Origin: a virus
DNA length: 26,426 bases
IMG/VR virus record: IMGVR_UViG_3300032249_001335
Coordinates: 1-26,426 of that record
Strand: one strand, 5' to 3'
Positions within the stretch are counted from its first letter, which is position 1. Every line of letters starts with the position of its first letter. This document shows, in pieces, positions 13,316 to 15,400 of the stretch. The notes beneath the pieces were generated by a model that was not told the DNA's origin, searched no databases, and saw only the letters and a list, made by a program, of their open reading frames with translations. The position numbers and the translations under genes are program-made.

Positions 13316-13337
13316 CCCTGCTCAGGCAGGGTTTTTT
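13316..13337 (+). terminator. Rho-independent terminator of late arm
   Basis: Perfect CCCTGC-TCAG-GCAGGG hairpin followed directly by six T residues. It ends rightward transcription of the tail/lysis operon. Its right half is also the coding end of the convergent integrase gene (stop codon at 13324-13322), so the two operons share these bases. Confidence 0.9.
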
Positions 13338-14392
13338 GACAGTGAGAGTTGCTTAGGCAATAGTGCCGCGGATCGAGATGCGTCGTTGTTGTAGTAAGTG
13401 TCTCTGATGATCCGAATGTCTTTCGTGCCGATCGCGTGCGACAAGGCCAGAGGATCGAGGTAGGGCGCGAGACGCGTCGCTGCCTCGTGCTTGGTGTCGT
13501 GGAAGGTGAAGTCCTCAACAGCGGCTTTGTCCCGGCACTTCCGCCACAGCGCGTCGCGCTGTGAGTCGTTCATTCCCACGATGTAGGGCTGGTCCTTCGG
13601 CTTGCTGGCAAGGAGTTGGTCGAGCAGATCGATAGCACGCTCGGTCAGCGGCACCGGCCTGCTGGGATCGATCGAGGCCCGTCCGCTGCGAGCGGACTTC
13701 CGGCCCCCCTGCTCGATCGCGGCGACGCGCACGGTCCTGGCCGATCGCATGTAGTCGACGGGGCGCAGGCGCAGGATCTCACCGGACCTCATGCCCGTCT
13801 CAAGCGCCAGCAGGAAGCAGGCTCCAACCTTGGCGGTGAGAGTGGACAGGTCGCTGTCCTTCGAGTAGCCCGTGGTGTGGCACAGCGCCTCGATCTCGCG
13901 CTCGGTGAGCAGGGGTCGGTTGCGCGGTGCCGTCTTGGGCGGGCGCATGGCACCTCGGCACGGGTTCACGGTGATCCAGCGACGAACCTTGACGGCGTAA
14001 GTGAAGGCGGCAGACAGCAGTGTCAGCTCCCGGTTCGCTGTCGAGTCCATGACCTCCAGACGGCGTCTCTCGATCCACTGATTGATATCATGGGTTATGA
14101 CCTTGTCGACCTTCAGCTCAGCGATTTTGTCTTTGCAGAAGTTGTTGATGCGCAGCAGGTTCCACTTCGCTGAGTCGGTCTTCGATGCGATTTCGTCGCT
14201 GTATGCCCGCAGCATGTCGCCGACCGTGACGCTCGAAGACGATGTCAAGGCACCCGTGCGGACAAGCGCTTCTTGCTGCTTGCCCCATGCAGCAGCTTCT
14301 AGCTTTGTGTCACGCGTGGCGCTGATTTTCTTGCCATCGGCAAGCCTGACCACGCATCGCCAAGCTTTTCCTCTTTGTTCCAGGTGTGCCAT
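13322..14392 (-). CDS. int: Tyrosine recombinase integrase
   Basis: A 356-aa phage integrase. The N-terminal arm-binding domain (MAHLEQRGKAWRCVVRLADGK) is followed by a SAM-like core-binding domain (about 55-150) and a catalytic domain. Catalytic Arg I is in LETGMRSGEIL (R202) and the nucleophile in RDTYYNN (Y333/Y334). Two positions are unusual: the HxxR box reads FHDTKHEAATR (H298, Lys301 in place of Arg) and the usual Gly-His reads IGTKD (Thr323). I chose the ATG at 14392 since it gives the normal family start; a GTG at 14455 would add 21 residues encoded entirely by attP repeats. It lies beside attP, converges on the late arm, and integrates the phage at a tRNA 3' end. Confidence 0.92.
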   Translation of the reverse strand: MAHLEQRGKAWRCVVRLADGKKISATRDTKLEAAAWGKQQEALVRTGALTSSSSVTVGDMLRAYSDEIASKTDSAKWNLLRINNFCKDKIAELKVDKVITHDINQWIERRRLEVMDSTANRELTLLSAAFTYAVKVRRWITVNPCRGAMRPPKTAPRNRPLLTEREIEALCHTTGYSKDSDLSTLTAKVGACFLLALETGMRSGEILRLRPVDYMRSARTVRVAAIEQGGRKSARSGRASIDPSRPVPLTERAIDLLDQLLASKPKDQPYIVGMNDSQRDALWRKCRDKAAVEDFTFHDTKHEAATRLAPYLDPLALSHAIGTKDIRIIRDTYYNNDASRSAALLPKQLSLSKNPA

Positions 14393-14521
14393 GTCGTCCC
14401 CAATGAGTTCAGTCTTGGGGACATTCTTGGGGACGCGCTGGGGACACGTCAACACCCTTCCCAGGAGGCTGGGGTATGAATTGGGGACATCCTATGCTCT
14501 GATAGTGTCACCGTAGAGAAG

Positions 14522-14552
14522 AAAAAACCCGCTAAATCAACGACTTAGCGGG
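14522..14552 (-). terminator. Leftward terminator in attP core
   Basis: On the minus strand an 8-pair CCCGCTAA/TTAGCGGG stem with a 9-base loop is followed by six T residues: a strong intrinsic terminator. It lies 17 bases downstream of the tRNA-like CCA end, so it was probably the terminator of the host tRNA gene. In the phage it stands at the end of the leftward early operon and before int. Confidence 0.85.
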
Positions 14553-14569
14553 CTCAAGGAGATTTATCA

Positions 14570-14585
14570 TGGTGCCCAGGAGAAG
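14570..14585 (-). other. tRNA 3'-end fragment (attP core)
   Basis: Read on the minus strand, CTTCTCCTGGGCACCA is the end of a bacterial tRNA: last T-arm bases, acceptor strand CCTGGGC, discriminator A and CCA. From memory it best fits a tRNA-Leu whose acceptor begins GCCCAGG. The match stops here, and no full tRNA lies in the window. Integration would rebuild the host gene end from this copy. Confidence 0.7.
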
Positions 14586-14619
14586 CACCCTAGACCCGCA
14601 TAAATGCTAGCTCTGTGGC

Positions 14620-15066
14620 TTATCGGGGACCGGTTCCTGTCCCCATTGAGTTCACGTGAAAGCCTTTCGGGGGCCAAAGCTTCTCTGCTGACACGCAGGT
14701 TCGCTCTTCTGGCCTGAGTCCTTGGTTCTTCAGTTCGACTTCTGAAAAGCAACCGAAGCCGCTGCTGTAGGTGCTGCAGATGAGTTGGATGTTGTTGCTG
14801 TTGCCCGGTGCCCAGAGTTCGACTTTTACCCAACCAGAGCCCTGCAGGCACTTCGGACCCTGCGATACGTCGTCCATGATGTTGAGGCTCCAGCCCCGGT
14901 ACGGCTCGTTCTTGTCGATGAAGTCCAGTGCGCTGAGTGCTGCGTTCGTTCGAGCCTGAGTGCGTGCGTTCTCCAAGACGTAGGGAGCAGGAGGAGCGGC
15001 GAAAGAGTTGAGTTGCAGGGCTGCGTTTGCGAAGACAACTGCGAGGGCCAAGACAAGTTTGTTCAT
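14620..15066 (-). CDS. Secreted four-cysteine protein, possible lysogenic conversion gene
   Basis: A 148-aa protein with a clear Sec signal peptide: MNKLVLALAVVFANAAL, then LNSFA-A with likely cleavage after SFA. The mature part of about 125 residues has four Cys (in GPKCLQG, LICSTYSSGFGCFSE and ERTC) that could form two disulfides in the periplasm, and a YRGWSLNIMDDVSQG stretch. I do not recognise the family. The ATG at 15066 has AAGGA about 8 bases upstream; a longer frame from 15132 would hide the signal peptide. It is the last gene of the leftward operon, after a 46-base gap, next to attP. That is a typical site for host-phenotype genes such as superinfection exclusion, but this role is inferred from place only. 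Confidence 0.72.
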   Translation of the reverse strand: MNKLVLALAVVFANAALQLNSFAAPPAPYVLENARTQARTNAALSALDFIDKNEPYRGWSLNIMDDVSQGPKCLQGSGWVKVELWAPGNSNNIQLICSTYSSGFGCFSEVELKNQGLRPEERTCVSAEKLWPPKGFHVNSMGTGTGPR

Positions 15067-15112: not shown

Positions 15113-15400
15113 TCAGTTCTTGCGTCGTGCACCTCCCGTTGGTGGGTTCCTGTCGAAGTGCTTCTGCACCCAGTCGAGCACCTCTGATCGCCGCCACTTG
15201 GGCTTACCCGGCTTGCCGTCTTGCTTGGTCAACCTGACGCAGGCGGGAAAGCCGGGAGCGAGGGCGTAGTTGTCGAGGAAGTAGCGCCCGGTGCAGCAGA
15301 GCAGTGCACCGACATCACCGGTGTCGAGCAGCGCGTCAGGTGCCATGCGAGATGCGATCTCGCGGGCCAACTCTTGAACATCGATTGCCTCTGCGGTCAC
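15113..15400 (-). CDS. Excisionase / AlpA-like DNA-binding protein
   Basis: A 95-aa protein with a winged-HTH of the AlpA/MerR-like excisionase type: LLDTGDVGALLCCTGRYF (about 24-41), then the PGFPACVRL wing and PKWRRSEVLDWV (68-78), with a basic tail. Proteins of this shape bind DNA as recombination directionality factors or as small regulators. Being near attP and int supports an excisionase role, but a transcription regulator cannot be excluded. It starts with GTG, overlapping the ThyX stop (GTGA), so it would be made with the early operon, consistent with excision on induction. Confidence 0.65.
   Translation of the reverse strand: MTAEAIDVQELAREIASRMAPDALLDTGDVGALLCCTGRYFLDNYALAPGFPACVRLTKQDGKPGKPKWRRSEVLDWVQKHFDRNPPTGGARRKN

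Follow-up and report, generated by a model that had tools for sequence, protein, structure and literature searches.

The attP layout described here has been published for the mycobacteriophages CrimD, Pixie and Omega (PMC3203893, PMC3706429). In CrimD and Pixie (Cluster K), the core overlaps a tRNA or tmRNA gene and is flanked by arm-type repeats. Moreover, in CrimD the core is located 5' of int and a stem-loop terminator separates it from the near arm, and Pixie carries three direct arm sites on one side together with an inverted site (PMC3203893). In lambda attP (P1, P2, core, P'1-P'3), arm and core sites are bound in a two-domain manner and the tandem direct sites P'1-P'3 are spaced 10 and 11 bp apart; this attP is found on the 3' side of int, with a core that does not coincide with a tRNA end. 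For the tRNA-associated integrase of KplE1 (attL/intS, argW target), the promoter overlaps arm sites and the int and excision factor (RDF) genes are uncoupled. Negative autoregulation was shown for this system and is expected to be general for tRNA-associated integrases (PMC2951348). Cluster J mycobacteriophages use a tRNA-Leu target and carry inverted sites resembling arm sites at the start codon of int, with attP 3' of int and an identity that begins in the anticodon loop (PMC3706429). The T7-like cyanophages P-SSP7 and S-TIP37 combine lytic-type replication genes with int and a tRNA-Leu attP, which lies downstream of int and has a core of ~40 bp (PMC8776855).

Our analysis covered a virus record from IMG/VR with a length of 26,426 bases (the window). 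On sequence grounds, we consider it very probable that the stretch in front of its tyrosine integrase gene is the attP of this integrase (Int) and that it serves integration into the 3' end of tRNA-Leu(CAG) in the host. The features of CrimD and Pixie named above are all present, combined with another arm sequence and another target RNA gene than in these phages of actinobacterial hosts. Since CrimD and Pixie share this plan, the window attP is another example of a known architecture, and in itself an ordinary, well-preserved one. Accordingly, the reading as a well-preserved attP in an earlier note on this DNA is supported as a whole, as most of its computable predictions held at the level of sequence. 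As in lambda, there are three tandem direct arm sites, here spaced 11 and 12 bp, and Int would bind arms and core in the same two-domain manner; unlike in lambda, the triad is located 5' of int and overlaps the int expression signals. The window shares with KplE1 a tRNA-associated integrase, a (candidate) promoter overlapping arm sites and the uncoupling of int from the (candidate) RDF gene, with a different target and an autoregulation that we only presume. The tRNA-Leu target and an inverted site at the int start codon are found as in Cluster J, and the combination of lytic-type genes, int and tRNA-Leu attP as in the cyanophages; both groups differ from the window in the position of attP and in the extent of the identity, which is 16 bp here, and the cyanophages also in their cyanobacterial hosts.

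The 16-mer in front of int had been taken for the end of a tRNA-Leu, and in Burkholderiales it does indeed match the 3' end of tRNA-Leu(CAG) exactly. Of 399 genomes of this order, 22 contained it without mismatch together with the preceding T-loop prefix TTCGAGT, frequently as tandem pairs, and ARAGORN called tRNA-Leu(CAG) at all 8 host loci checked. When the phage core was joined to the host tRNA in silico, the resulting attL contained an intact tRNA-Leu in 6/6 hosts. The core is thus identical to the host tRNA 3' end, and integration would rebuild the tRNA. At the host tRNA-Leu loci the DNA beyond CCA differed in every host and did not match the phage. Therefore, the identity shared by phage and host is the 16-bp tRNA end only, and of the host search suggested earlier the tRNA-Leu genes were recovered but not the match downstream. 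For an uncultivated phage, this predicts both a host group, namely Burkholderiales with this tRNA-Leu end, and the integration site. Dyad symmetry and a like layout in the relatives L062 and L063, weaker in L064, suggest TCTCCTG as the 7-bp overlap of strand exchange (Table 1). The element CGCATAAA beside the core also occurs as a single copy beside the core in L063 (3745), L064 (3788) and the relative L066 (3612), and is reversed in the window; it is possibly a site for a host factor or an excision factor.

Table 1. Coordinates of the attP features and neighbouring genes in the window
Feature	Positions	Strand	Basis
Int, tyrosine recombinase, 356 aa, ATG at 14392	13322..14392	-	PF00589 E=3e-12; phrog_1 integrase 2e-49
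Inverted near-arm site CGTCCCCAA	14395..14403	+	word scan
Near-arm triad site 3, TGTCCCCAA, 12 bp from site 2	14415..14423	-	word scan and spacing search
Candidate int promoter TTGACG-18-AAGAAT overlapping the arm triad	14423..14452	-	consensus scan only, 9/12
Near-arm triad site 2, CGTCCCCAA, 11 bp from site 1	14427..14435	-	word scan and spacing search
Near-arm triad site 1, TGTCCCCAG	14438..14446	-	word scan and spacing search
Isolated near-arm site TGTCCCCAA	14481..14489	-	word scan
Intrinsic terminator between core and near arm	14525..14555	-	14-pair stem, -20.1 kcal/mol, z = -3.85
attP core CTTCTCCTGGGCACCA, exact 3' end of tRNA-Leu(CAG)	14570..14585	-	host genome matches, ARAGORN, in-silico attL
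Putative 7-bp strand-exchange overlap TCTCCTG between half-sites GGGTGCT (14584-14590) and GGCACCA (14570-14576)	14577..14583	-	dyad symmetry
CGCATAAA beside core, sole copy in window	14597..14604	+	
148-aa protein with apparent signal peptide, between attP and RDF candidate	14620..15066	-	ORF; weak relative at same place in L062
Far-arm site GGTCCCCGA, weakest of the seven	14623..14631	-	word scan
Far-arm site TGTCCCCAT, inverted relative to the preceding site	14638..14646	+	word scan
Candidate excision factor (RDF), 95 aa, winged-helix-like	15113..15400	-	synteny and model

The core is accompanied by a cluster of short repeats. Counted on both strands, GTCCCC occurs 10 times in the window, and 7 of these words are packed into 249 bp, at 14396-14401(+), 14417-14422(-), 14429-14434(-), 14440-14445(-), 14483-14488(-), 14625-14630(-) and 14639-14644(+). 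Dinucleotide shuffles of 14391-14660 contained a mean of 0.35 and a maximum of 4 words, and seven were reached in 0/2000, which confirms the seven arm repeats reported before. The 7-mer GTCCCCA is the cleaner statistic, since a run of GCCGCC in coding DNA also counts 7 at the 6-mer level. It is the most clustered and highest-count 7-mer of the window, its six copies in 260 bp being a number that 40 shuffles of the entire sequence never reached. The mixed orientation of the repeats on both arms held as well, with the correction that five lie on the integrase side and two on the far side of the core. Hence, arm-type repeats are found on both sides of the core, as in lambda-type sites. On the minus strand the order from the far side is two inverted GTCCCC sites (14623-14646), CGCATAAA, the 16-mer, the terminator, five GTCCCC sites (14395-14489) and int. 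The consensus that had been proposed for the Int arm sites, TGTCCCCAA, recurs in the closest relative and in a Variovorax attL remnant. Far-arm pairs in inverted orientation are present in L063 and L064, too. In the window this pair is located inside the 3' end of the gene for the 148-aa protein, which is possibly a lysogeny-linked accessory gene. The complement GGGGA of the inverted near-arm site occupies the Shine-Dalgarno position of int (GGGGACGACATG), and this site may have a regulatory role. The outermost arm sites extend into the direct repeat of 15/16 bases noted before (14396-14411 and 14639-14654). This repeat is longer than the arm consensus, and none was seen in L062.

The terminator beside the core was likewise confirmed. 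Its loop and upper stem correspond to TAAGTCGTTGATTTA (14533-14547), and this 15-mer (R at position 7) is common to L062, L063, L064 and L066, with a one-base variant in the relative L027. As host DNA after CCA does not match, the terminator is carried by the phage, and a position within the shared core is ruled out because host sequence past CCA never matched. We also considered whether the 15-mer TAAGTCRTTGATTTA might mark attP sites specifically. Burkholderiales genomes are enriched in it (29 vs 2 with the reversed control), mostly away from integrases; followed by a T-run it is widespread in IMG/VR contigs, again mostly away from integrases among the matches listed. Therefore, this role was rejected. 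A text search on the 15-mer returned no relevant description.

Comparison with related loci shows that target and layout were kept while the arm word changed. In L062, the closest relative (Int 63% identical), the order of the neighbouring genes is retained, and so are the tRNA-Leu end (CCTCTTCTGGGCACCA), the terminator and four arm words GTCCCC. L063 and L064 have the same tRNA-Leu(CAG) end but GGTGTC arms, and L066/L026 (Paucibacter sp. KBW04) combines TTAACCA arms with the 3' half of an apparent tRNA-Leu(CAA). In L027 (Variovorax sp. J22R24), GTCCCC words separate a truncated int from the intact tRNA-Leu(CAG) that it directly follows, and in L071 a related int directly follows an intact tRNA-Leu(CAG). 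This arrangement, seen in the Variovorax remnant and another Comamonadaceae genome, places integrated relatives of the window phage at the same tRNA gene. The proposed integration site is thus backed by related integrases that adjoin this gene or carry its end. No integrated copy of the window phage and no close relative with intact attL and attR was found, the truncated remnant L027 being the nearest integrated relative. A DNA comparison with phage records matched ThyX only, with no close record for the region. On the L026/L066 contig, we observed an apparent unrecombined attP with no intact tRNA beside the tRNA-Leu(CAA) half.

The AlphaFold model of Int (pLDDT 87.6) has full-length lambda Int (1z1b) as its best PDB match. 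Its N-terminus, a strand-strand-strand-helix at residues 3-45, is predicted to adopt the lambda-Int-like fold of an arm-binding domain. The catalytic residues R202, H298 and Y333 of tyrosine recombinases are conserved, and integrases of named phages are at most 34% identical to Int. In the Int clade a Lys replaces the usual box II Arg, a change with which activity is not assured. Judging by its sequences, the clade appears to have a variant active site, in which this Lys is combined with an enlarged beta2-beta3 loop. Most of the family differs from Int and its close relatives, which have HDTKH or HDMKH (Int residues 298-302) and an expanded conserved GGRKxxxSGR loop (Int residues 227-240). The distant relative L068 has the box II Lys and lacks this loop.

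The Lys bears on whether the site is used. A real attP that is inactive, or that serves rare and transient integration of an essentially lytic phage, would fit this residue as well as the lytic-style replication set of the window (PolA-type polymerase, ThyX and exonuclease), and integration at tRNA-Leu that does not lead to stable lysogeny is known from T7-like cyanophages (PMC8776855). Nevertheless, the Lys is common to six distinct clade sequences, and the full arm set, core and terminator are kept across divergent relatives, which suggests selection for function. We therefore regard this alternative as rather unlikely while giving it some weight. Because of the lytic-style replication set and since no repressor was recognised in the 26-kb fragment, integration may be occasional, in the manner of these cyanophages.

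Far less probable is that the GTCCCC repeats are operators of a phage repressor or iterons of an origin, with the tRNA fragment being a separate matter. Such sites could overlap the int promoter region, as they do here, and could account for an outer direct repeat of 16 bp that exceeds the arm consensus. However, no repressor gene adjoins, and in the window and the attP forms most similar to it (L062, L063 and L064) the tRNA end and terminator have arm words to either side. Moreover, direct repeats precede int across the family at the same place and spacing with other sequences. That the window represents a prophage end (attL or attR) can practically be dismissed. A tRNA end beside int is also an attL signature, but ARAGORN found no complete tRNA in the window, the core has arm sites to either side, and the genes flanking it on both sides match the L062 order.

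For the favoured reading as a free attP, we infer Int binding, cut positions, autoregulation, RDF function and lysogeny as follows. By analogy with lambda, the N-terminal domain of Int would hold the arm sites and the catalytic domain would bind the core half-sites at the tRNA-Leu(CAG) end. Int would then recombine attP with the 3' end of the host gene, whereby the phage would rebuild the tRNA 3' end and bring its own terminator between tRNA and int. As in lambda and KplE1, integration would part the near arm and int (attL) from the far arm and the RDF candidate (attR). Int probably represses its own gene, as in KplE1, because the promoter region and the ribosome-binding site of int coincide in part with the arm triad and the inverted site. 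By its association and synteny, the 95-aa product is likely the best candidate for the excision factor: homologues are encoded beside attP/int in L062 (49%), L064 (44%) and L063 (35%), and beside int in L253 (29%). Its model (pLDDT 76) gave weak matches only, MerR/BldC- and AlpA-like, and a Pfam search found no match even at E = 5.

The arm triad may reflect a more general rule. We searched the 110 bp before the int start of 40 family members for three similar 7-mers with spacings left free between 8 and 16 bp. Triplets were present in 30/40 members compared to 41/800 shuffled sequences, and 18 of the 30 had spacings of exactly 11 and 12 bp. Similarly, 8-mer direct pairs occurred in 43/47 loci and in 22% of shuffles; 35 of the 43 pairs were spaced 11 or 12 bp, whereas shuffles were flat. 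These spacing counts include some close relatives, so that rows are not all independent, and the repeat words are diverse (GTCCCCA, TGCACCA, TACGCGC, CCCGCG, GGCCCA and others). In named phages of Acinetobacter, Pseudomonas, Pasteurella and Mannheimia, mostly pairs about 10-11 bp apart were found. For triads, the named phages gave a mixed picture, as several had pairs with a spacing of 11 bp instead. On balance, we lean towards a family with a fixed arm geometry and a variable repeat sequence, in which the int start codon is closely preceded by three direct repeats with spacings of, most commonly, 11 and 12 bp, the clade of the window having a variant active site. We found no statement of this spacing rule in a limited literature search. 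From window and relatives, a simple rule would emerge by which the sequence alone reveals the arm sites of an integrase. If true, the arm-binding specificity of many integrases could be read directly, and these would form a natural data set for working out the code by which the N-terminal domain recognises its sites. This would aid the design of integration tools and the study of how integrase DNA specificity changes. Covariation of the arm motif with the N-terminal domain beyond the rest of Int gave a partial Mantel p of ~0.06 for both domains with only 22 sequences. In the locus of another family integrase, L073, the core-like GGCACCA lies at the apparent end of a protein-coding sequence, not a tRNA, which makes it a possible secondary site.
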